DNA from: Roseimicrobium sp. ORNL1
GTDB lineage: Bacteria; Verrucomicrobiota; Verrucomicrobiia; Verrucomicrobiales; Verrucomicrobiaceae
Length of the DNA stretch: 64,000 nucleotides
Reading direction: 5' to 3'
Assembly (NCBI RefSeq): GCF_011044495.1
Contig: NZ_CP049143.1
Location: forward strand, 3,596,001 to 3,660,000
Under the pieces are notes generated by a model. The model saw only the letters and a list, made by a program, of their open reading frames with translations, was not told where the DNA came from and searched no databases. How positions within the stretch are numbered: the first letter of the stretch is position 1; every line of letters starts with the position of its first letter. This document shows, piece after piece, positions 27,101 to 35,525 of this stretch. The position numbers and the translations under genes are program-made.

Positions 27101-27276
27101 GAGTGGGATGACCAAGATGCCCGCCCACTGCCTGCTCACAAGGCTGGATTTCAAGAGAGAGCCGCAAGGGCACACATATTTTTGCGGATTGGGGTAAAAG
27201 CGAAAATTTTCCTTTCCTGACCGGGAGTCTCCCGCTAAGAGCGGAGCCTTCCTTACCGAAACCCTCACACACCGTT

Positions 27277-27666
27277 ATGTCTTGTAGGAATCATCCCCAG
27301 ACCCAGGCTGTGGCCACCTGCACCGGTTGCGCCGAGCCGTTCTGCCACAACTGCCTCGTGCAGCTCAGTGGACAGAACTACTGCGGATCTTGCAAAGTGC
27401 TCGCTCTGAACGGACGCGAACCCATCTTGGAGAACCGCCTGCGTCCGTGCAAAGAGGCGGCGGATGCCCTGAAATTCGCATTCATCGGACTGTTGTGTTT
27501 CGGCTTCATCTTGGGGCCGATGGCCATCTTTAAAGCCGTTGAGGCGAAAAAACTCATGAGAGATGATCCCACCTTGTTGGGATCCGGAAAATCGACAGCC
27601 GCCCTCGTCGTTGGCATTTTCGCGCTCGCTCTCTGGCTCATGAGTCTTGTTTCGCGCTTGTCCTGA
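27277..27666 (+). CDS. Membrane protein with N-terminal B-box-like zinc finger (first gene of the ubiquitin-like operon)
   Basis: 129 residues. The first 40 residues carry C3, H6, C15, C18, C23, C26, C36 and C39, a C-x2-H-x8-C-x2-C-x4-C-x2-C-x9-C-x2-C pattern like a B-box or treble-clef zinc binder. After a charged linker come two TM helices (about 66-87 and 107-127), so the finger should face the cytosol. Bacterial B-box proteins are recalled from RING/ubiquitin-like neighbourhoods. It lies 176 bp from divergent uvrA and 22 bp before the next gene. It may act as a membrane adaptor in the conjugation pathway, which is an inference. Confidence 0.8.
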   Translation: MSCRNHPQTQAVATCTGCAEPFCHNCLVQLSGQNYCGSCKVLALNGREPILENRLRPCKEAADALKFAFIGLLCFGFILGPMAIFKAVEAKKLMRDDPTLLGSGKSTAALVVGIFALALWLMSLVSRLS

Positions 27667-27688
27667 AAGGTCCCCGCCACCACTCGCC

Positions 27689-28336
27689 ATGAGCCAACTT
27701 TCCGAACCGACACTGACCTGCGGGCGGCACGCCCAGATCCCCGCCACTTGCTATTGTGCCCAGTGCGCCATGCCCTTGTGCGACAACTGCGCCCGGCCGC
27801 AAAGGGATGGGACTTTCAAGTGTCTCACTTGCTCTGTGGGTGCCAGGCTACCGGAGGCCCCCAGGCCTCGCATCCCTGTGCACTCGCCATTGGTCTCACA
27901 CCCGTGTACCCAGCATCCAGAGGTGAAGACCATCAGGCGCTGCAGTGGGTGCGGTGCCCACACTTGCGAGACCTGTAGCTTCACGCTGGAGAGCAATCTG
28001 CACATCTGTCCCACCTGCGCGATGAAAGGGCCCACGGGGCTGTCTTCCTCCCGAAAGACGCTGGTCATCGTCGGGTTGCTCCTGGCCATCTGGAGCACCG
28101 CAGCGACGGGTTTGATGGTCACCGGCTATTTCGCTGAGTCCAGCGAGGCTGCCGCAGGTCTGGCATTCTCTTTCCTGATCTTCTTCCCCGCACTCATTGG
28201 ATTTGCCGTGAGCCTTTCTGCCCAGGAACGCCGGTTGCAAAATCCGGCCCTCGTCTGGGTGGCGGTCACTTGGAACACGTTGTTACTGATCGGATTCGTC
28301 GCGCTCATCGTGATCGGGAATCTGAGCAATGGCTGA
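27689..28336 (+). CDS. Membrane protein with two B-box-like zinc fingers
   Basis: 215 residues from the ATG at 27689. Two zinc fingers stand in tandem: C11, H14, C23, C26, C31, C34, C45, C48 and C73, H76, C85, C88, C93, C96, C107, C110, each C-x2-H...C-x2-C-x4-C-x2-C...C-x2-C. A Pro/Arg linker separates them, and three hydrophobic helices follow (about 120-140, 150-170 and 185-208). It is a larger paralogue of the preceding protein, with 22 bp between the genes and 27 bp to the ubiquitin-like gene. Membrane tethering with cytosolic fingers suggests a scaffold or E3-type partner, which is an inference. Confidence 0.8.
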   Translation: MSQLSEPTLTCGRHAQIPATCYCAQCAMPLCDNCARPQRDGTFKCLTCSVGARLPEAPRPRIPVHSPLVSHPCTQHPEVKTIRRCSGCGAHTCETCSFTLESNLHICPTCAMKGPTGLSSSRKTLVIVGLLLAIWSTAATGLMVTGYFAESSEAAAGLAFSFLIFFPALIGFAVSLSAQERRLQNPALVWVAVTWNTLLLIGFVALIVIGNLSNG

Positions 28337-28363
28337 CGAAATTTTCTGAAACGCGATCAACTC

Positions 28364-28633
28364 ATGGGAGCAACAAGACTTCGAGTACTGGATATCTCGG
28401 GAAGCCGCGCCACGGAAGTGGAGGCACCGGATGATGTGGCCATCAACCGCGTGCTGACCGTTCTGATCGAGCGCATGAACCTGCCGCTGAACAGTCCGGA
28501 TGGGCAGCTGATGAGCTACAAGCTGCATCACCGCAGGAGCGGCCGGCAACTCCTCGATCACCAGACCCTGGCCGATGTCGGCGTGGTGGATGGGGATGAA
28601 CTGCGCCTGCAGCCGGAGATCACCGCTGGCTGA
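28364..28633 (+). CDS. Ubiquitin-like protein with free C-terminal glycine
   Basis: 89 residues. The sequence starts with a beta-grasp strand (RLRVLDISGSRATEVEAPDDV), a helix (INRVLTVLIERMNL) and further strands (SYKLHHRRSG, QTLADVGVVDGDELRLQPE). This follows ubiquitin and YukD/EsaB folds, including the LxDxGVxDGDxLxL close. The last residue is Gly89 (ITAG then stop), the form activated by E1 enzymes, so no proteolytic trimming is needed. The E1 gene begins 7 bp later. It should be the modifier that the operon's E1-E2-RING set transfers to targets. Confidence 0.88.
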   Translation: MGATRLRVLDISGSRATEVEAPDDVAINRVLTVLIERMNLPLNSPDGQLMSYKLHHRRSGRQLLDHQTLADVGVVDGDELRLQPEITAG

Positions 28634-28640
28634 TGCTGCC

Positions 28641-29843
28641 ATGAGCGTGCCGCATCCCGAGGTTGTGTCTCTCGCAGAGGGCAGGTTTGCCCGGCTGGAA
28701 GCCATTGAGTGGTGGGACCAGCGCCGCCTGACAGCGGCGAAGGTGCTGGTGATCGGCGCGGGCGCGCTCGGCAACGAGGTGCTCAAGAACCTGGCCCTGC
28801 TGGGCGTGGGTCACGTGGCGATTGCGGATCAGGACCATGTGGAGCTGAGCAATCTCAGTCGTTCCGTCCTCTTCCGTGAATCGGATGAAGGCCAGCCCAA
28901 GGCCCTCTGCGCCGCGCGGGCGCTCCAGGAAATCTATCCGGGTATCAGGGTGTATCCACTTGTAGGGAATGTCATTGCCGAACTGGGACTGGGCTGGTTC
29001 CGCTGGGCAGACGTGGTGGTGGGTGCGCTCGACAACCGTGAAGCCCGCGTGTTCGTGAACAGCGCCTGCGCCCGCATGGACCGTCCGTGGGTGGACGGCG
29101 GCATCGAGGTGCTGCAGGGCATCGTGCGCGCCTTCTACCCCCCACGCACGCCGTGCTACGAATGCACCATGAGCAAGGTGGACTGGGACCTTATTGACAA
29201 ACGTCGATCCTGTTCGCTGGTGGCCCGCCGGGCGATGGCACAACGCGGCACTCCCACCACGCCCACGTCAGCCTCCGTGATTGGCGCCATCCAGGCCCAG
29301 GAGGTGGTGAAGATTCTTCACGGCATGGATGGCATGCTGGGCCGGGGCTTCTTCTTCGATGGCCAGCACCACAGCTCTTATGGGATCGACTATCAGATCC
29401 ATGAGGACTGCCCGTGGCATGAGGCGCAGCCAGAGATCGTGTCCTCGCCGGACTGGAAATGGGAGAGTCCGCTCGCCATCCTTGCGAAGGAGGCTGAGGC
29501 GCGGCTGGGGGGACTGGATGCGCTGGATTTCGGACGGGAGATCGTGGAGCGCATGGAGTGCCTCGCTTGTGGGCTACACACACCTGTGTGGCGCGCTGCG
29601 GAACAGTTGGGCGAGCATGAGCTGCACTGTTCCTCGTGCGGCGCGGAATGTTCGCCAAGAGTGGTGCATTCTCTCACGCCTGCGCATCCAGCCATGCAGC
29701 GAAGCGCCCGCGAACTGGGCCTGCCCGAGCGGGACGTCCTGTGGGCCCGGCGTGGCGAACGTCAATTGGGCATGGAGCTGGCTGCAGAGTCCGGCTTCGA
29801 GGACCGGTGCCAGCAGCAACAGAATCAGAACATCACGCCATGA
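28641..29843 (+). CDS. E1-like ubiquitin-activating enzyme (ThiF/MoeB superfamily)
   Basis: 400 residues. Adenylation features are GAGALGNEVLKNLALLG (nucleotide loop, residues 39-55) and DQDHVELSNLSRSVLF, with the Arg and Asp pair that holds ATP/Mg. A zinc Cys pair C172-x2-C175 is followed by C191 in KRRSCSL, the position of the thioester cysteine, and IGAIQAQEVVK is diagnostic of E1/MoeB. Two extra CxxC pairs lie at C307/C310 and C330/C333, so the C-terminal part probably binds a second zinc. It starts 7 bp after the ubiquitin-like gene, and its TGA overlaps the JAB gene start as ATGA. Confidence 0.92.
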   Translation: MSVPHPEVVSLAEGRFARLEAIEWWDQRRLTAAKVLVIGAGALGNEVLKNLALLGVGHVAIADQDHVELSNLSRSVLFRESDEGQPKALCAARALQEIYPGIRVYPLVGNVIAELGLGWFRWADVVVGALDNREARVFVNSACARMDRPWVDGGIEVLQGIVRAFYPPRTPCYECTMSKVDWDLIDKRRSCSLVARRAMAQRGTPTTPTSASVIGAIQAQEVVKILHGMDGMLGRGFFFDGQHHSSYGIDYQIHEDCPWHEAQPEIVSSPDWKWESPLAILAKEAEARLGGLDALDFGREIVERMECLACGLHTPVWRAAEQLGEHELHCSSCGAECSPRVVHSLTPAHPAMQRSARELGLPERDVLWARRGERQLGMELAAESGFEDRCQQQQNQNITP

Positions 29844-30982
29844 GCTCTGGAAACAAAGGCAAAGCGCAGAAGGAAACCTCCTCCGAGGTGCAGGTGGGGC
29901 GCTCCGTGACCACCCAGCGAGCCAGGAAGAAGGTGTTTCCCGGGCCGAAAGGGAGCCACGTGCCGCTGCGCGTCGCCATTTCCCGCCAGGCGCACGCCGA
30001 GCTGGCGGCACATGCTCGCGAATCGCTGCAGGCGGAAGTTTGTGGCGTGCTTGTGGGTGAAGTCTGCCAGGATGACGAGGGAATCTATACCGATGTGCAG
30101 GCCATCATTCGCGGCCAGGCTGCCAGCGAAGGGAGCACGCATGTGACCTTCACGCAGGCTACCTGGAATGCCATTCACGAGACCATCGACCGGGAGCATG
30201 CGGACCGTTCCATCGTGGGCTGGTATCACACCCACCCCGGATTTGGTGTGGAGTTTTCTGAGATGGACCTGTTCATCCAGAAGAATTTTTTCTCTGGCGA
30301 GGCACAGGTCGCATTGGTCACGGATCCCATCTCAGGCGAAGTAGCTCTCGCGGCCAATGGCGGCGAGGACGGAGGCATCACCTACCTGCCATGCTATTGG
30401 GTGGATGGCCGTGAGCAGCCTGCTCGCGTGCCGGCTTCCAGCATGCCGGCCACCATGCAGGGGAGCGAGCGCCATCCCGCGACGGCGCGAAGCCTCGAGG
30501 CTTTGGAGAACCGCATCTCCCAGCTCACGCAGTCGCTCGATGAAGTGACTTCCATGTTTTACAAGACCCTCTTCTTCGCCGGAGCGGTCGTGTGCCTGGG
30601 CGTGCTGGTGTTTGCCGGGCTCCTGATCCGGGCGCAGTTCCAGGCGCGCATTGAGCCGCCGCAATTGAACAGCTTCGTTCCTGTGCCGGTAAAGATTGGG
30701 GATAAGAACGTGCTGCTCGGCGTGAGCGTGGTGAACTGGGACGTGCCTCCCGAACTCAACGCCCTGCTGCTGGACCTTGAGAAGGAGAAGCAGGAAGAGG
30801 CTGCAAAAGCCGCCGCCGCGGCGCTCGAGGAAGGACAGCCCGAAAAGAAGGAAAAGGCGAAACCAGCCTCCCAGCCCAAACAGGTGGAACCACCCCACGC
30901 AGCGCCGCAGCCCGCGTCATCACCCTCACCTCCGGCGCAGTCCGCCCCGCAGCCTCCCGCTTCGCCGCCTGCCGCAAAGTAG
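29840..30982 (+). CDS. JAB/JAMM metallopeptidase (deubiquitinase-like) with membrane anchor
   Basis: 380 residues. After a basic N-terminal tail, the JAB domain (about 40-185) has a full JAMM zinc site: E66 in AEVCGVLVGE, and H130, H132, S140 and D143 in WYHTHPGFGVEFSEMD. A helical, perhaps coiled-coil segment (215-240), one TM helix (245-265) and a periplasmic or second domain with Glu/Ala/Lys helix and Pro-rich tail follow. Enzymes of this class cleave isopeptide bonds to release ubiquitin-like modifiers. The start overlaps the E1 stop by 4 bp. It may either process conjugates or remove the modifier at the membrane. Confidence 0.9.
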   Translation: MSSGNKGKAQKETSSEVQVGRSVTTQRARKKVFPGPKGSHVPLRVAISRQAHAELAAHARESLQAEVCGVLVGEVCQDDEGIYTDVQAIIRGQAASEGSTHVTFTQATWNAIHETIDREHADRSIVGWYHTHPGFGVEFSEMDLFIQKNFFSGEAQVALVTDPISGEVALAANGGEDGGITYLPCYWVDGREQPARVPASSMPATMQGSERHPATARSLEALENRISQLTQSLDEVTSMFYKTLFFAGAVVCLGVLVFAGLLIRAQFQARIEPPQLNSFVPVPVKIGDKNVLLGVSVVNWDVPPELNALLLDLEKEKQEEAAKAAAAALEEGQPEKKEKAKPASQPKQVEPPHAAPQPASSPSPPAQSAPQPPASPPAAK

Positions 30983-31000
30983 AGACCAGATAACTTTTCC

Positions 31001-32386
31001 ATGAGCACCGAGAACGACTCCGTCATCCGCATCACCAAGGACGATGCCAACAGCCGTCATGTCGACGATCTGCTCAAGCGGCAGATGAGCCTGCGGGGCG
31101 AGACAGGAATCGCTCGTGATCGTGGCAAGTCCATCTTCCTCCAGAGCTGGGTGGTCCTCATGGTCGTGGGCTGCGTCAGCGCCATCATCGCCTGGGCCAT
31201 TCTTGAGCCCTGGTTTGATGACCATCTGGAACTGAAGGGCACGGTGGAGAGCGTGGAAGTGCGGAGCGATGTGGCGAAATACCGCTTCGGCATGCGAACG
31301 ATCGATACCGAGGTGCCCACCATTGCCAGGTTGGTGGTGAATGGACAGACTATCTGGCTGCCGGACGGGGTGCGGGAAGTGAGGAATAACAAGGCTGTAG
31401 GCTGGCTCGATCCCTCCACCATCCGTGCAGGTCAGAAGGTGATCGCTTTCATCGATGAATCCTACGCCATGAGCGGAGGGGAGTCCGCCATTGCCATCCT
31501 TGTCGAACCCCTGCCGGATGATGCGGTACTGGGACCACCAAAGACCATCGCCCAGCTTCAATCGCAGAACTCCGCAGCGAATCTGCTCTTCTTCCCGATC
31601 ATCGCCGCCTGTATCGGCTTGGGGATTGGTGCGGTGGATGGCATCGTGTGCCGGTTGCCGCGTCGCGCTTTGTTGTGTGGCCTGGTCGGCCTCGTGGTGG
31701 GATTCGTGGGAGGCTTCGTCAGCGGTATCGTCGCGAACATCGCCTATGGACCGATCAGCATGTTTGCGTCGGAGAAAATGGCCAGCGGTGGCGTCAATGC
31801 AGGGGTGGGATTTGGACTGCAGATGATGGGGCGCATGCTCGCCTGGGGGCTGGCAGGCATGACCATGGGAGTGGGGCAGGGGCTGGCATTGCGCTCCACC
31901 CGGCTGGTGACATACGGATTTGTTGGTGGTGTCGTGGGAGGACTGCTGGGAGGGATGTTCTTTGATCCCATCTCCACCATGCTCCTTGGCCATGACCACG
32001 TGGGTGGGGATGTGAGCCGCCTCGTTGCCATCGCCATCATCGGCGCCTGTACGGGGGGCATGATTGGTGTCGTGGAGCTGCTGGCCCGCGATGCCTGGCT
32101 GCGCATGATTCACGGACCACTGAAGGGGAAGGAATTCCTGCTTTACAAGGACGTGATGAATGTGGGTTCCTCCCCCAAGTCCGACTTGTATCTTTTCAAC
32201 GACCCCCGTGTGGCTCCCCAGCACGCCTTGATCCGCACAGTGGGCGAAGGCTACGAGATTGAAGCGCGTCAGGGCACCCAACCCGTGATCATCAATGGCT
32301 CCAGCCAGCAGCGCGCCCGCCTGCGGCATGGGGATGAGATCACCATCGGCGGCACCGTCTTTACCTTCCAGATGCGCAAGAGCTGA
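31001..32386 (+). CDS. Polytopic membrane protein with C-terminal FHA domain
   Basis: 461 residues. One TM helix lies near 48-70, then an extracytosolic-looking domain of ~110 residues (DHLELKGTVESVEV...VVNGQTIWLPDG) with an OB-like outline. About six TM helices follow (190-360, very Gly-rich: GLVVGFVGGFVSG, GGVVGGLLGGMFF). The last ~80 residues form an FHA domain (NVGSSPKSDLYLF, APQHALI, INGSSQQ, GDEITIGG), which binds phosphothreonine. It lies between the JAB gene (18 bp) and the RING gene (6 bp). The FHA domain could recruit phosphorylated targets to the conjugation machinery, an inference. Confidence 0.85.
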   Translation: MSTENDSVIRITKDDANSRHVDDLLKRQMSLRGETGIARDRGKSIFLQSWVVLMVVGCVSAIIAWAILEPWFDDHLELKGTVESVEVRSDVAKYRFGMRTIDTEVPTIARLVVNGQTIWLPDGVREVRNNKAVGWLDPSTIRAGQKVIAFIDESYAMSGGESAIAILVEPLPDDAVLGPPKTIAQLQSQNSAANLLFFPIIAACIGLGIGAVDGIVCRLPRRALLCGLVGLVVGFVGGFVSGIVANIAYGPISMFASEKMASGGVNAGVGFGLQMMGRMLAWGLAGMTMGVGQGLALRSTRLVTYGFVGGVVGGLLGGMFFDPISTMLLGHDHVGGDVSRLVAIAIIGACTGGMIGVVELLARDAWLRMIHGPLKGKEFLLYKDVMNVGSSPKSDLYLFNDPRVAPQHALIRTVGEGYEIEARQGTQPVIINGSSQQRARLRHGDEITIGGTVFTFQMRKS

Positions 32387-32392
32387 TTTGCC

Positions 32393-33007
32393 ATGTCCAC
32401 GGAAAATACCCAGAGCCATGTGTGCAGCATCTGCCTGACGGCGGTCGAGCCCGGTGGCGGCAGTGTCGAGTGCCCGTCATGCACGACCGTCTACCACGAT
32501 GACTGCTGGGCGGAGAATGGTGGCTGCGGAAGATATGGCTGCGTGGAGACGCCTCCCACCGAGCCACGCACCGACTTGGAGATTCCGGTTTCCTTCTGGG
32601 GCCAGGAACACAAGCAGTGCCCCTCGTGCGGCACGCAAATCATGGCGGCCGCGCTACGCTGCAGGAACTGCGGCGCCACCTTCTCTTCCGCGCGCCCGGA
32701 AGATGCCGAGGCTTTCCGCAACCGCGCCACACAACAGTCACGGCGCTCCGGCACCCAGCGCATGGCCATGGTGGTCTTCAGCCTCTGCATCCTGCCCTGC
32801 ACTTCGCCACTGGGACTGTTGATCGCTGCCATCTGGTATCCGCTGCGACGCAAGGAACTGGCCACGCTCCCAGGCTTGTACCGGACCCTCCTGATCATCG
32901 GCATGATCGTAGCGGTGATCCTGATTGTGGGCACCGTGCTGCTGAGCCTGACTTACGCACGCACGCATACGTTGGACTTTGAACTGCTCCCGAACGCCTC
33001 CCAATGA
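32393..33007 (+). CDS. RING-finger (Prok-RING_1-like) zinc-ribbon membrane protein, E3-like
   Basis: 204 residues. The N-terminal finger has C11, C14, C27, C30, H35, C38, C45 and C50 with YHDDCW before the second half, a C-x2-C-x12-C-x2-C-x4-H-x2-C-x6-C-x4-C treble clef like the prokaryotic RING family 1. A zinc ribbon (C76, C79, C90, C93) follows, then two TM helices (about 122-150 and 164-190). RING proteins bring charged E2 to the substrate. Its stop overlaps the E2 gene start by 4 bp (ATGA), which suggests that E2 and E3 are made together. Confidence 0.88.
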   Translation: MSTENTQSHVCSICLTAVEPGGGSVECPSCTTVYHDDCWAENGGCGRYGCVETPPTEPRTDLEIPVSFWGQEHKQCPSCGTQIMAAALRCRNCGATFSSARPEDAEAFRNRATQQSRRSGTQRMAMVVFSLCILPCTSPLGLLIAAIWYPLRRKELATLPGLYRTLLIIGMIVAVILIVGTVLLSLTYARTHTLDFELLPNASQ

Positions 33008-33465
33008 CGCCCCGACTCCGACGACTGACCGCCGACTACCAGCATGTCTGGCACGGACTGCATGAACACCCCGCCATCCGACTGGTGGAGGTGGAAGGGG
33101 ACCCTCCGGAGCGCTACGTGATTGATTTTCATCTCGCGGGGTTGGTGCCCGCCGGGAATGAGTCTTTTTCCCATGGAGGCACGCATCGGGCGGAAGTCTT
33201 CCTGCCGTTGGACTATCCGCGCCGCCCGCCGGTCTGCCGCATGCTCACTCCCGTGTTTCACCCAAACATCGACCCCCAGAAGATCTGCATCGGCGATCAC
33301 TGGAGTGCTGGCCAGACGCTGCTCCAGCTCATTTCCCGCATCGCGGAAATGCTCGCTTTCCAAAGCTACAATGTGAAAAGCCCACTCAACGCCCGCGCTG
33401 CAGCCTGGGCGGAGCAGCATCCAGAGGCGCTGCCGCTGGACACGCGAGACTTCACCTTGGGGTAG
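33004..33465 (+). CDS. E2-like ubiquitin-conjugating enzyme
   Basis: 153 residues with canonical E2 landmarks: YPRRPP (71-76), HPN (86-88), catalytic C95 in QKICIGDHW, W100 and the helix TLLQLISRIAEMLAF, followed by the SPLN turn. The arrangement matches UBC-fold enzymes of eukaryotes and bacterial Bub-type systems, not the atypical E2-like fusions of type II CBASS. The E2 accepts the modifier from the E1 as a thioester and transfers it to a lysine or, with RING help, to the target. The start overlaps the RING gene by 4 bp. It is the last gene of the operon, and a minus-strand membrane gene converges 10 bp further on. Confidence 0.93.
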   Translation: MTPRLRRLTADYQHVWHGLHEHPAIRLVEVEGDPPERYVIDFHLAGLVPAGNESFSHGGTHRAEVFLPLDYPRRPPVCRMLTPVFHPNIDPQKICIGDHWSAGQTLLQLISRIAEMLAFQSYNVKSPLNARAAAWAEQHPEALPLDTRDFTLG

Positions 33466-33475
33466 GGCAGCAGCT

Positions 33476-33919
33476 TTACGGGCTGGTTTCTACGGGCTGA
33501 GATGCCCGGATTCGATGCACGCACATCCACAGCGCTGCCAGGATGGCAATTCCGATGAGAACCCGGGGCTGATGCAGGATCAGGCTGCCTGCCAGAGCAA
33601 GGCTGAAAATCACCACGGCATAGTTGCGCGAGGTGGCGAGAGGAAACAGCGGCAGCACTGCCAGCCCCAGGAGCGTGAGGAGTGCGATTGGCACGAGAAA
33701 AACCGCATACATGGACTGCGGCATCCGGTGTGAGGAAAAAGATTCTGCCATCCCGATCTCCAGCCATCCTACGAAGCCCAGCCAGGATATGATCACCACA
33801 GAAATCGTAATGTATCCCGAGACGGCAATCGAGTATCGGTGCTCGCTCCTGATACCCAAGGCAAGCAAGATGGCCAGCGCAGAGACTCCACAAAGGACAA
33901 TGGACAGGTCGATGAGCAT
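33476..33919 (-). CDS. Hypothetical membrane protein, four TM segments
   Basis: 147 residues, almost entirely hydrophobic with helices at about 3-22, 33-53, 70-94 and 103-132, separated by short charged loops (IRSEHRYSIA, ATSRN, HRIRASQ). No family recognised. The stop codon lies 10 bp from the E2 stop on the opposite strand, so it does not belong to the + strand ubiquitin-like operon. Confidence 0.6.
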   Translation of the reverse strand: MLIDLSIVLCGVSALAILLALGIRSEHRYSIAVSGYITISVVIISWLGFVGWLEIGMAESFSSHRMPQSMYAVFLVPIALLTLLGLAVLPLFPLATSRNYAVVIFSLALAGSLILHQPRVLIGIAILAALWMCVHRIRASQPVETSP

Positions 33920-34052
33920 GGGAGGGTGTCTCGCACGGCAAATTTCTCAGGTTTCCCGGTGGGTCGCAAGCTTTCAAAATGGACTGCTGAGGGGCGGACA
34001 GGAGGCGGAGGGGCATCACTGTAATCCTAGGGCGCAGCGGCGAACTGTAAAT

Positions 34053-34080
34053 CTCCTGCAACCTTTCTAAAGGAGGCAGG
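34053..34080 (+). promoter_or_regulatory. Candidate Shine-Dalgarno-masking hairpin before the sigma factor gene
   Basis: TAAAGGAGG (34068-34076) is a near-perfect ribosome-binding site, but it lies 16 nt from the ATG at 34093. An upstream CTCCT (34053-34057) can pair with AGGAG (34071-34075), and CCTGC (34055-34059) with GCAGG (34076-34080). Either pairing would hide the site. Confidence 0.35.
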
Positions 34081-34092
34081 TTTACACCCCGC

Positions 34093-34761
34093 ATGTCCGC
34101 GGTAACGTTCGCAGCCACCCCACCTTTTTTCGCCTGGAACATGCCGGACTGGACGCCGAGCACCGCAAACAGCAGCGCCCCGGAAGCTTCTCCTGATGAG
34201 GAGAACGTCAGGCTTATGCTGCTCGTGAAGCAAGGGGATGTGAAAGCCTTTGAGCAACTCGTGGATCTCCACCAGCGCGCGGTGATCGGCACGGTGGCGC
34301 GGATGCTCAACAATGTGGATGACGCGCACGACGTGGCCCAGCAGGTCTTTGTGCGTGTGTGGCGCTCAGCCCCGAGGTATGAACCCAGCGCGAAGTTCAC
34401 CACCTGGCTTTTCACCATCATGCGCAATCTCGTCTTCAATGAGATGCGCCGTCGCACGCGGAAGCGTGAGGTCTCCATGGACGAGCAGCAGGAGGACTCT
34501 CACCGGGAGCATGCCGCCTCACCCCGGCATCATCCGGATACCACCGTGGCCCAGAGTGAACTGGAAGAGGCCATTGACCGCGCCATCCAGACCCTGCCGG
34601 AGAAGCAGCGTCTGGCCGTGACCCTTCGCCGCGACCTGGACATGCCCTATGAAGAGATCTGCGAAATCCTCGGCATGTCCCTCTCGGCCGTGAAGAGCCT
34701 GCTCTTCCGCGCCCGCAACGACCTCAAGGAACGCCTCAAGGACCATCTGGACGAGGATTAA
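34093..34761 (+). CDS. ECF-type RNA polymerase sigma factor
   Basis: 222 residues. Region 2 is clear: LVDLHQRAVIGTVARML...DAHDVAQQVFVRVWRSAPRYEPSAKFTTWLFTIMRNLVFNEMRRR. Region 4 follows with LPEKQRLAVTLRRDLDMPYEEICEILGMSLSAVKSLLFRARNDLKERL. The first ~35 residues (Pro/Ala/Thr/Ser) lie upstream of region 2, and MPDW at residue 17 is an alternative start. No anti-sigma gene follows on the same strand. Two minus-strand DUF2007 genes converge on it, the first overlapping its stop by 4 bp. It directs RNA polymerase to a stress or envelope regulon, unknown here. Confidence 0.92.
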   Translation: MSAVTFAATPPFFAWNMPDWTPSTANSSAPEASPDEENVRLMLLVKQGDVKAFEQLVDLHQRAVIGTVARMLNNVDDAHDVAQQVFVRVWRSAPRYEPSAKFTTWLFTIMRNLVFNEMRRRTRKREVSMDEQQEDSHREHAASPRHHPDTTVAQSELEEAIDRAIQTLPEKQRLAVTLRRDLDMPYEEICEILGMSLSAVKSLLFRARNDLKERLKDHLDED

Positions 34762-35084
34762 GCCGTCGCTGGCACAAGGTCGGTCCCGCACGACCAGCAC
34801 ATTTCGAAGTTGCCCGGGTTCTTCTCCTGGCACTTCGGGCAAGCGACTTCCTCCTGACTGGACTCGCTGTCCTTCACGATGCAGTCCCGGATGATCTGGA
34901 CAGCGTCCTCGTAGTCCTCATCATTCATGACACAGAGCGCCGGGTAGAACTCCGGGATGGGGATCTCCGTCATGAAGGTGGTGGTATCCTTGTTCCGTAC
35001 AAAGGTGGGAATACCCTCGGCCTCCAGAACGGTCTGGAAGTAGCCTACGCGGGTGTAATCTCGCTCGCGAAACAGTTCTCTCAT
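34758..35084 (-). CDS. DUF2007 (putative signal transducing) protein with C-terminal zinc ribbon, copy 1
   Basis: 108 residues from the ATG at 35084. MRELFRERDYTRVGYFQTVLEAEGIPTFVRNKDTT, then ALCVMNDEDYEDAVQII, is the DUF2007 fold (GlnB-like ferredoxin-type half-domain). The C-terminus has a zinc ribbon (CPKCQEKNPGNFEMCWSCG). The next gene upstream is a paralogue, 105 bp away on the same strand, showing a local duplication. Its stop overlaps that of the sigma factor gene by 4 bp. Confidence 0.8.
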   Translation of the reverse strand: MRELFRERDYTRVGYFQTVLEAEGIPTFVRNKDTTTFMTEIPIPEFYPALCVMNDEDYEDAVQIIRDCIVKDSESSQEEVACPKCQEKNPGNFEMCWSCGTDLVPATA

Positions 35085-35189
35085 GGGCGATTGCAGCGTT
35101 GAAGTTGGTACCCTGGCCATCCTACCTCTGAACGCCCGCGACGCACCACCACAAAAGTGAGGTGTTGGCTTCAAGGCTCCAAACACTGA

Positions 35190-35525
35190 TCACACCAACC
35201 GTTCGCCCGGCGAAAGCAGATCCGCTCCACAGGACCAGCAGGTCTCGAAGTTTCCTGGATTCTTCTCCTGGCACTTGGGACACACATGCTGCTGCTGGCT
35301 TTGGCGCGCGCCGTAGACGGCATTCTTCTCCAGTACCTCCACGGCGATGTCGTAGTCCTCGTCATTCACCACGCACAGCGCGGGGAAGAACTCGGGGATC
35401 GGCACCATGGTGGTCATCGTCTCGGTATTCTCGTTCATCACGAACGTGGGAATACCCTCGGACTCCAGCATGCCACGGTAGAATCCAACCCGGGTGAAAT
35501 CCTTCTCACGAAACAGCTCTTTCAT
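35190..35525 (-). CDS. DUF2007 protein with C-terminal zinc ribbon, copy 2
   Basis: 111 residues, closely similar to copy 1 in both domains (KELFREKDFTRVGFYRGMLESEGIPTFVMNEN, ALCVVNDEDYDIAVEVLEK, VCPKCQEKNPGNFETCWSCGADLL). The two zinc ribbons are nearly identical over CPKCQEKNPGNFE. A tandem duplication is the simplest reading. The 227 bp upstream gap (35526-35752) shows nothing else. Confidence 0.8.
   Translation of the reverse strand: MKELFREKDFTRVGFYRGMLESEGIPTFVMNENTETMTTMVPIPEFFPALCVVNDEDYDIAVEVLEKNAVYGARQSQQQHVCPKCQEKNPGNFETCWSCGADLLSPGERLV

Follow-up and report, generated by a model that had tools for sequence, protein, structure and literature searches.

Bacterial systems in which a RING finger protein, an E1 activating enzyme, an E2 conjugating enzyme and a JAB peptidase are encoded together with YukD-like ubiquitin-like modifiers (UBLs) were reportedly predicted by Burroughs, Iyer and Aravind in 2011, the RING proteins being said to carry membrane helices. 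Bil systems consist of a UBL, an E1, an E2 and a JAB peptidase; they are not known to include RING, FHA or B-box proteins. Here we analyze an eight-gene operon of Roseimicrobium sp. ORNL1 (Verrucomicrobiota) that encodes all of these protein types. It lies within a 64,000-nucleotide stretch (NZ_CP049143.1, positions 3,596,001 to 3,660,000, forward strand; hereafter ‘the window’) that is part of one 7.96 Mb contig. The literature disagrees on whether bacteria own a full ubiquitin toolkit: excerpts of one survey report none (PMC4327156), excerpts of a 2024 review limit homologues of human E2s to single instances in four other phyla of bacteria (PMC11354881), and a third paper, likewise in excerpt, states that some complete operons exist in bacteria (PMC5654768). 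YukD is described, in the passages of Iyer 2006 that concern it, with ESAT-6 (type VII) export genes and as unconjugated (PMC1779556).

Family matches, conserved residues and conservation of the gene set indicate that the operon probably encodes a membrane-anchored, reversible, RING-assisted UBL conjugation pathway, in agreement with the membrane-associated conjugation and removal operon proposed in the initial annotation of this DNA. The eight + strand genes are as closely set as that annotation described (6-27 bp gaps or 4-bp overlaps), with intergenic gaps of 22, 27, 7, 18 and 6 bp and two 4-bp overlaps. Hydropathy, scanned over 19 residues, places membrane segments in window products 1, 2, 5, 6 and 7, the five expected. 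The genes, and the island in which they lie, are as follows.

27277..27666 (+): gene 1, B-box-like protein, 129 amino acids; double zinc site at the N terminus, followed by 2 membrane helices (DUF4190-like)
27689..28336 (+): gene 2, double B-box-like protein, 215 amino acids; 2 B-box-like domains, then 3 membrane helices
28364..28633 (+): gene 3, YukD-type UBL, 89 amino acids; Pfam YukD; ends in ...QPEITAG
28641..29843 (+): gene 4, E1-like activating enzyme, 400 amino acids; ThiF/MoeB fold and a C-terminal domain with 2 CxxC pairs
29840..30982 (+): gene 5, JAB/JAMM metallopeptidase, 380 amino acids; 1 membrane helix at about residues 245-263; Pro-rich C-terminal tail
31001..32386 (+): gene 6, FHA protein, 461 amino acids; multi-helix membrane protein with a C-terminal FHA-like domain
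32393..33007 (+): gene 7, RING protein, candidate E3, 204 amino acids; C4HC3 zinc finger, zinc ribbon, 2 membrane helices
33004..33465 (+): gene 8, E2-like conjugating enzyme, 153 amino acids; UQ_con; HPN and Cys95
27152..34057 (no strand): island flanked by uvrA and an ECF sigma gene; 115 bp at the matching place in the same-genus genome G001

A scan of 84,980 species genomes based on the E2 returned 21 loci, 12 of them at 58-76% E2 identity and nine distant (30-36%); L002, L003 and L004 were treated as duplicates of L005, L018 and L025, each pair being counted once. All 21 are records of metagenome-assembled genomes, in which binning may err. All open reading frames (ORFs) of the loci were scored first with the eight window proteins and then with profiles made from these loci. 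The order Bbox-Bbox-UBL-E1-JAB-FHA-RING-E2, on one strand, is shared by the window and L005, L006, L008, L010, L012, L014, L015, L016 and L078. The search for the same gene set in other genomes, which the initial annotation had recommended for Verrucomicrobiota, thus yields nine relatives with the operon in one piece (Verrucomicrobiota and Planctomycetota records, plus L078), and because it recurs in this way, the arrangement is far beyond chance. One genome labelled Deltaproteobacteria holds genes 1-6 at a contig end (L077) and genes 7-8 at a contig start (L007), and the operon of L013 is cut by a contig end, beginning within the E1. Record labels of the 12 closer loci include Prosthecobacter, other Verrucomicrobia, Thermoguttaceae, Phycisphaerae, other Planctomycetota, a Deltaproteobacterium and a Fibrobacter.

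Two of the loci hold partial gene sets. A truncated RING gene and an E2 gene occur at 1884-2822 of L009, where the rest of the operon is absent, and a lone truncated E2 gene at 9995-10420 of L011; neither genome has a UBL match. From their sequences, both look like operon remnants, and they were left out of the operon count.

All catalytic classes of a conjugation pathway occur in the one operon, with significant family matches. The E2 (Pfam UQ_con, 2e-14) has the HPN motif and catalytic Cys95 noted initially; H86, P87, N88, C95 and W100 are invariant in 12/12 aligned sequences (this and all further residue counts omit L077 and L078, the partial E1 of L013, and the truncated RING and E2 of L009 and L011, respectively). 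The product therefore combines a model score above the cut-off with HPN and a cysteine at the catalytic position. Its profile matches 252 distinct Protein Data Bank (PDB) sequences at E ≤0.01 (best 2.3e-11), and the best 60 of these are all named ubiquitin-conjugating or ubiquitin carrier proteins. The JAMM peptidase is also recognized (Pfam JAB, 5e-12), with E66, H130, H132, S140 and D143 invariant in 10/10. Mean column identity, calculated for five products, is 71% for the UBL, 69% for the E2, 68% for the E1, 62% for the FHA protein and 45% for the RING protein.

Gene 7 matches Prok-RING_1 at 1.8e-9 (37.8 bits, cut-off 29.1), and its eight cross-brace ligands (C11, C14, C27, C30, H35, C38, C45 and C50) are invariant in 11/11, giving a C4HC3 pattern whose final ligand pair is spaced by four residues; it is thus a RING-type zinc finger protein, as annotated. 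The profile matches of this domain among PDB sequences are led by 1wev (2.7e-4), which we take to be a PHD finger, and then EL5 (0.0055). The AlphaFold2 model of the protein (11 sequences) has a mean pLDDT of 81.2; Foldseek matches it best to Arkadia RING mutants (E 0.059 and 0.063), followed by the EL5 RING (0.34), with PHD fingers near. Prokaryotic RINGs are characterized in the 2024 review, as far as its excerpted text goes, by a C4HC3 pattern and a longer insertion in the last pair (PMC11354881). We infer from its sequence that the protein would act as an E3.

The E1 (Pfam ThiF, 5.5e-54) has an invariant GAGALG motif, D65, N71, R74, K87, D131 and P205-T206-T207 in 9/9 aligned sequences. 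C172/C175, C191 and C307/C310/C330/C333 are likewise invariant (9/9), so that a cysteine at the thioester position, as claimed at the outset, is conserved. C191 is probably the thioester cysteine, a candidate chosen from sequence; the spacing between C172/C175 and C191 resembles what we take to be the zinc pair and catalytic cysteine of the SUMO E1. In profile searches of PDB sequences, compared as single domains, the better UBA7 domain (95.7 bits) scores about as high as ThiF (99.6). Structure prediction, a check suggested with the initial annotation, was applied to the E1 and the RING protein. The E1 model (9 sequences) has a mean pLDDT of 64.7, with residues 155-210 and 232-263 under 50, and among the best 50 rows of a structure comparison its adenylation part resembles MoeB, ThiF, SAE2, APPBP1, UBA1, UBA6 and UBA7 (Z 21.7-25.7); for the RING model, the best match remained at the E-value given above. 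The C-terminal profile of the E1 gives weak matches, several of them to zinc-ribbon proteins (best E 0.12).

Gene 3 belongs to the YukD family of Pfam (8.5e-11; 42.9 bits, cut-off 27). There are 50 distinct UBL matches, of which 47 reach the end region of the model; the short ones are L030 (contig end), L070 and L017 (unresolved bases). Ala-Gly stands at the same place in 45/47 full-length distinct UBLs from related operons: 16 of these 45 stop there, and 29 bear tails of 1-51 residues without evident shared sequence. Conservation that stops at the Gly is, on sequence grounds, what marks a modifier with a trimmed precursor, and tails after a fixed Ala-Gly are as would be expected of a pro-protein trimmed by JAB. 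The window UBL has the free C-terminal Gly reported for it, ending at Ala-Gly with no tail; by this pattern it is predicted to need no trimming and to be made in mature form. An apparent UBL-JAB fusion in L017 was rejected, since the reading frame crosses an unresolved stretch.

The B-box assignment of genes 1 and 2 holds in part. Pfam matches stay under cut-off, with zf-B_box at 0.002 and DUF4190 at 6.6e-5 for gene 1, and zf-B_box at 3e-4 over two stretches for gene 2 (B-box matches of 18.7 and 21.3 bits; Pfam cut-off, 24.1); the assignment is therefore based on the ligand pattern. C3, H6, C15, C18, C23, C26, C36 and C39 of gene 1 are invariant in 9/9, as are C73, H76, C85, C88, C93, C96, C107 and C110 of the second box of gene 2, whose first box has ligands that vary among the 9 aligned sequences.

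Gene 6 matches Yop-YscD_cpl (1.4e-13) and FHA (3.4e-9) in Pfam. The FHA label of the initial annotation is thus upheld, and the phosphorylation signalling that it might imply is not. The phosphothreonine pocket of FHA domains is, we assume, formed by a conserved Arg and Ser, placed here after Rad53 FHA1. G389 is kept, and in 10/10 aligned sequences the next Arg and the Ser of S-x-x-H are replaced, by S/A/C/G and A/L, respectively. Lacking the usual phosphothreonine-binding residues, the domain was rejected as evidence for kinase signalling; from its sequence, it is likelier to serve structure or protein binding than to read phosphothreonine. Together, the B-box and FHA proteins would most likely be scaffold or substrate-recruiting parts of one membrane complex.

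Comparative data, conserved residues and predicted folds suggest the following pathway. The UBL would be made either mature or as a tailed precursor, from which JAB would trim the tail to expose ...Ala-Gly. The E1 would adenylate the terminal Gly with ATP and then form a thioester, probably on Cys191, from which the UBL would be handed to Cys95 of the E2, in its eukaryote-like HPN site. The two-helix RING protein may keep the E2~UBL intermediate at the membrane and promote transfer to lysines of membrane or membrane-near proteins, and the membrane JAB could take the tag off again. For Caldiarchaeum, the excerpted report describes cleavage of a UBL tail by a JAMM enzyme and reconstituted E1/E2/RING conjugation (PMC5654768). 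There is no match to the proteasome/HslV family in the organism’s own genome (10/14 control genomes matched, E. coli included); the tag therefore likely has a non-proteasomal role and is unlikely to deliver proteins to a classical proteasome. The pathway may have a role in membrane-protein control or stress.

Several observations weigh against a conjugation pathway of this kind. The support for all eight proteins is at the level of sequence, with activity predicted, and that the substrates belong to the membrane is guessed from topology. The UBL has Ala-Gly rather than Gly-Gly at its end, 2/47 UBLs lack Ala-Gly (L061 has Ala-Ala there, and L069 differs), and the UBL profile gives weak ubiquitin matches among PDB sequences (best 0.0061). 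By sequence, the C-terminal profile of the E1 did not match the UFD with which eukaryotic E1s recruit their E2s, and the C-terminal domain itself is reached in 2 of the best 50 structure rows, both SUMO E1, with a root-mean-square deviation of 13.9. The zinc domain of gene 7 is matched by RING and PHD fingers alike, and none of 195 Foldseek rows for its model reaches E ≤0.001. Finally, excerpts of earlier work report the YukD of type VII secretion to be unconjugated (PMC1779556).

The operon is one of several layouts, which we lettered A-E, A being the window’s class and the others being assigned where their surroundings were read: B is UBL-E1-JAB-FHA-RING(s)-E2, C is RING-E1-E2-X-UBL-JAB, D is UBL-E2-E1-JAB in varying order, and E is E1-UBL-E2-JAB. 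An E1 tree recovers A, C and E as single groups, B and D not clearly so. The 11 E1s of the window’s class sit behind one branch (support 100/100), where Planctomycetota and Verrucomicrobiota rows are not split into two groups, although several inner forks are unresolved. The UBL profile matches 10/13 genomes holding loci from the E2 scan, 5/387 genomes of the organism’s own phylum (own included) and 32/392 genomes from the phylum to which G496, the source of L008, belongs; three of these 32 score as high as the window’s class. With the E2 as query, 4/142 relatives’ genomes match, own included, and the same-genus genome G001 does not.

Layouts also coexist or expand. Two occur within one genome in G502 (A at L014, B at L075) and in G498 (A at L010, C at L076), and in L086 (10084-14679) a single E1 and a single UBL gene are surrounded by two genes each for E2-like and JAB-like products. 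Sister-layout operons at L079 (11256-17233) and L080-L083 carry several RING-like or B-box-like zinc protein genes in a row before the E2, as if the E3 set had been expanded there, judging by sequence.

Additional genes accompany the operon in some relatives. Five of those with the operon in one piece have a ninth gene (encoding ~100 amino acids) between gene 2 and the UBL gene that is absent from the window: L006 (4614-5075), L008 (4856-5155), L014 (5040-5354), L016 (4694-5026) and L078 (10041-10349). Four of the five copies are from Planctomycetota records, those of L008 and L016 have no Pfam match, and our guess is a small beta-rich, PH-like domain. Related membrane-like genes lie directly 3’ of the E2 in L008 (10450-10881; DUF2752 by Pfam), L011 (10420-10821) and L013 (4108-4494). 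In a comparison of the non-operon ORFs of the 12 loci, only the ninth gene, the DUF2752 gene and one distant flanking pair (L008, L010) were shared.

In G001, the last aligned bases on the uvrA and sigma sides (L101, 12632 and 12748) have 115 bp between them, as against 6.9 kb (27152-34057) between uvrA and the ECF sigma gene in the window, so the operon is probably an acquired island as judged by this alignment. uvrA adjoins the sigma gene also in G012, from another genus; the simplest account is a gain in the window’s lineage, and loss in both the G001 and G012 lineages is a less simple one. No direct repeat of at least 8 bases was found at the island edges, and no tRNA adjoins the island. 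Foreign composition was rejected as a mark of the island: GC content at third codon positions is 0.69-0.79 in the operon genes and 0.756 in uvrA, which implies that the gain is old or the donor similar. Eight window-flank proteins had no match in the DNA around the operons of ten relatives, L005 included, so the operon sits elsewhere there. A promoter scan stayed at chance level (1 seen, 1.0 expected) and a terminator scan near it (7 seen, 5.0 expected).

Other features lie within or beside the island. A 147-amino-acid membrane-like ORF at 33476-33919 (-) falls within it; this ORF has no match at the uvrA-sigma junction of G001 and, in Pfam, only a sub-threshold one to PRA1. Beside the ECF sigma gene are tandem related genes at 34758-35186 and 35190-35525 (-), the second with DUF2007 and a zinc ribbon; both are matched in G001.

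A more far-reaching form of the conjugation pathway, which we put forward tentatively and would not wager on, is that the operon carries out true RING-dependent ubiquitination in a membrane complex. The membrane JAB would mature tailed pro-UBLs, and the B-box and FHA proteins would pick membrane proteins for a quality control that needs no proteasome. The module, self-contained on its island, would move from phylum to phylum, and a small E3 repertoire would have arisen in sister operons with several RING-like products.

Among alternatives, the one that survives best, although we consider it unlikely, is that conjugation is real and the operon is an immune system acting against phages or in other conflicts, like Bil, CBASS or the putative Bub pathways, which likewise are ubiquitination-like operons of bacteria. 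The patchy distribution (5/387 own-phylum genomes by UBL profile) and the island with an empty site in G001 are in its favor, as are excerpts of a report in which further UBL conjugation operons of bacteria either are immune systems or have regulators in common with them (PMC13373217). The operon’s own products speak otherwise. In PADLOC, the UBL, E2, FHA and B-box products have no match, the RING protein is at chance level (0.083, 0.099), and the matches of the E1 and JAB are to generic models of E1-E2 and JAB proteins, with a weak one of the E1 to BilD (4e-6, 23.8 bits). Pfam recognizes no toxic effector in the eight products, as the initial annotation held, and the UBL, the one product searched there, has no match in phage, plasmid and viral-contig collections.

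The neighborhoods of the relatives’ operons point the same way. From the flanks in eight relatives, 31 ORFs were chosen and scanned with PADLOC at 1e-10; 5 families had a match, in a single ORF each. By Pfam, the mad3 match (2.3e-25, L010) is an ABC transporter ATPase, and the SspA and DndA matches are one class V aminotransferase (L012); the DrmD and BrxHI matches fall among the 11 of 31 ORFs without a rescan. Pfam found 30 families in the 31 ORFs, the best 25 each in one ORF and mostly metabolic or transport. A defence island was rejected because these 31 ORFs show no defence pattern in PADLOC or Pfam, the DrmD and BrxHI matches not being located. Nor is there a CapK+CapS pair among the flanking ORFs scanned: L005 has a histidine-kinase-type ATPase and L010, a different locus, a STAS protein.

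It is improbable that the operon performs no conjugation, its UBL instead carrying sulfur or helping to build a secretion-like membrane complex, as YukD does together with FHA parts in type VII secretion. Such a role would suit the YukD family membership of the UBL, an FHA domain that resembles those of secretion systems and lacks phosphothreonine-binding residues, and MoeB and ThiF as best structure matches of the E1. An E2 with invariant HPN and Cys, a RING protein, a JAB and tails after a fixed Ala-Gly would be out of place there, and Pfam finds no WXG100 or FtsK/EssC-type ATPase in the eight operon products and four scanned window neighbors. Attachment of the UBL to a phospholipid, as for Atg8, with JAB removing it and the membrane partners building the site, has still less to recommend it and is very improbable: it would fit five membrane proteins and a single C-terminal Gly, but the operon has a RING protein and an E2 that matches UBC enzymes and bears the HPN of protein-conjugating E2s, which Atg3 and Atg10 are not known to have.

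A membrane-anchored conjugation pathway, which we thus prefer, would matter because the operon is small and self-contained, encodes all steps with invariant catalytic residues and has many relatives, so that the use of a RING E3 by bacteria becomes directly testable. The targets of a membrane-bound UBL pathway without a proteasome can also be tested, as can the relation of the eukaryotic system and of type VII secretion YukD to the operon. With the same set in distantly related bacteria, a question so far answered by prediction is opened to experiment.

Compared with described systems, the operon shares a UBL, E1, E2 and JAB with Bil and differs from it in having RING, FHA and B-box proteins; of the eight proteins, only the E1 matches a Bil model (BilD, among the best 25 of 33 E1 families). 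It is like type II CBASS and 6A-type E1-E2-JAB systems in its E1 and JAB folds, but its E1 and E2 are separate genes rather than a fused E2-E1 (Cap2), the eight proteins have no CD-NTase match, and the NCBIfam 6A-MBL match is far below cut-off (44.8 of 320 bits). The separation from both Bil and type II CBASS, and the missing CD-NTase, are as the initial annotation had stated. With YukD/EsaB of type VII secretion it has in common the YukD Pfam family and an FHA-like domain on a membrane protein, and it differs in its E1, E2, RING, JAB and conserved Ala-Gly end. The operon of Caldiarchaeum subterraneum, as covered in the excerpted report, is alike in UBL, E1, E2, RING, JAMM and pro-modifier tail, with JAMM trimming and removal shown there; it is archaeal, its modifier ends in Gly-Gly where the window UBL ends in Ala-Gly, it has a small RING finger protein, and no membrane partners are described in that text (PMC5654768). 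Among the matches listed in searches of open-licence papers, we found no description of the eight-gene set. With the systems predicted in 2011, the operon shares a UBL, E1, E2, RING and JAB in one neighborhood; the fixed order of the eight genes, two of them for B-box proteins and one for an FHA protein, and the rule of Ala-Gly plus tail are established here and may already be part of that prediction. The operon is thus a well-defined variant of the predicted RING-E1-E2-JAB-YukD kind, rather than a new kind.

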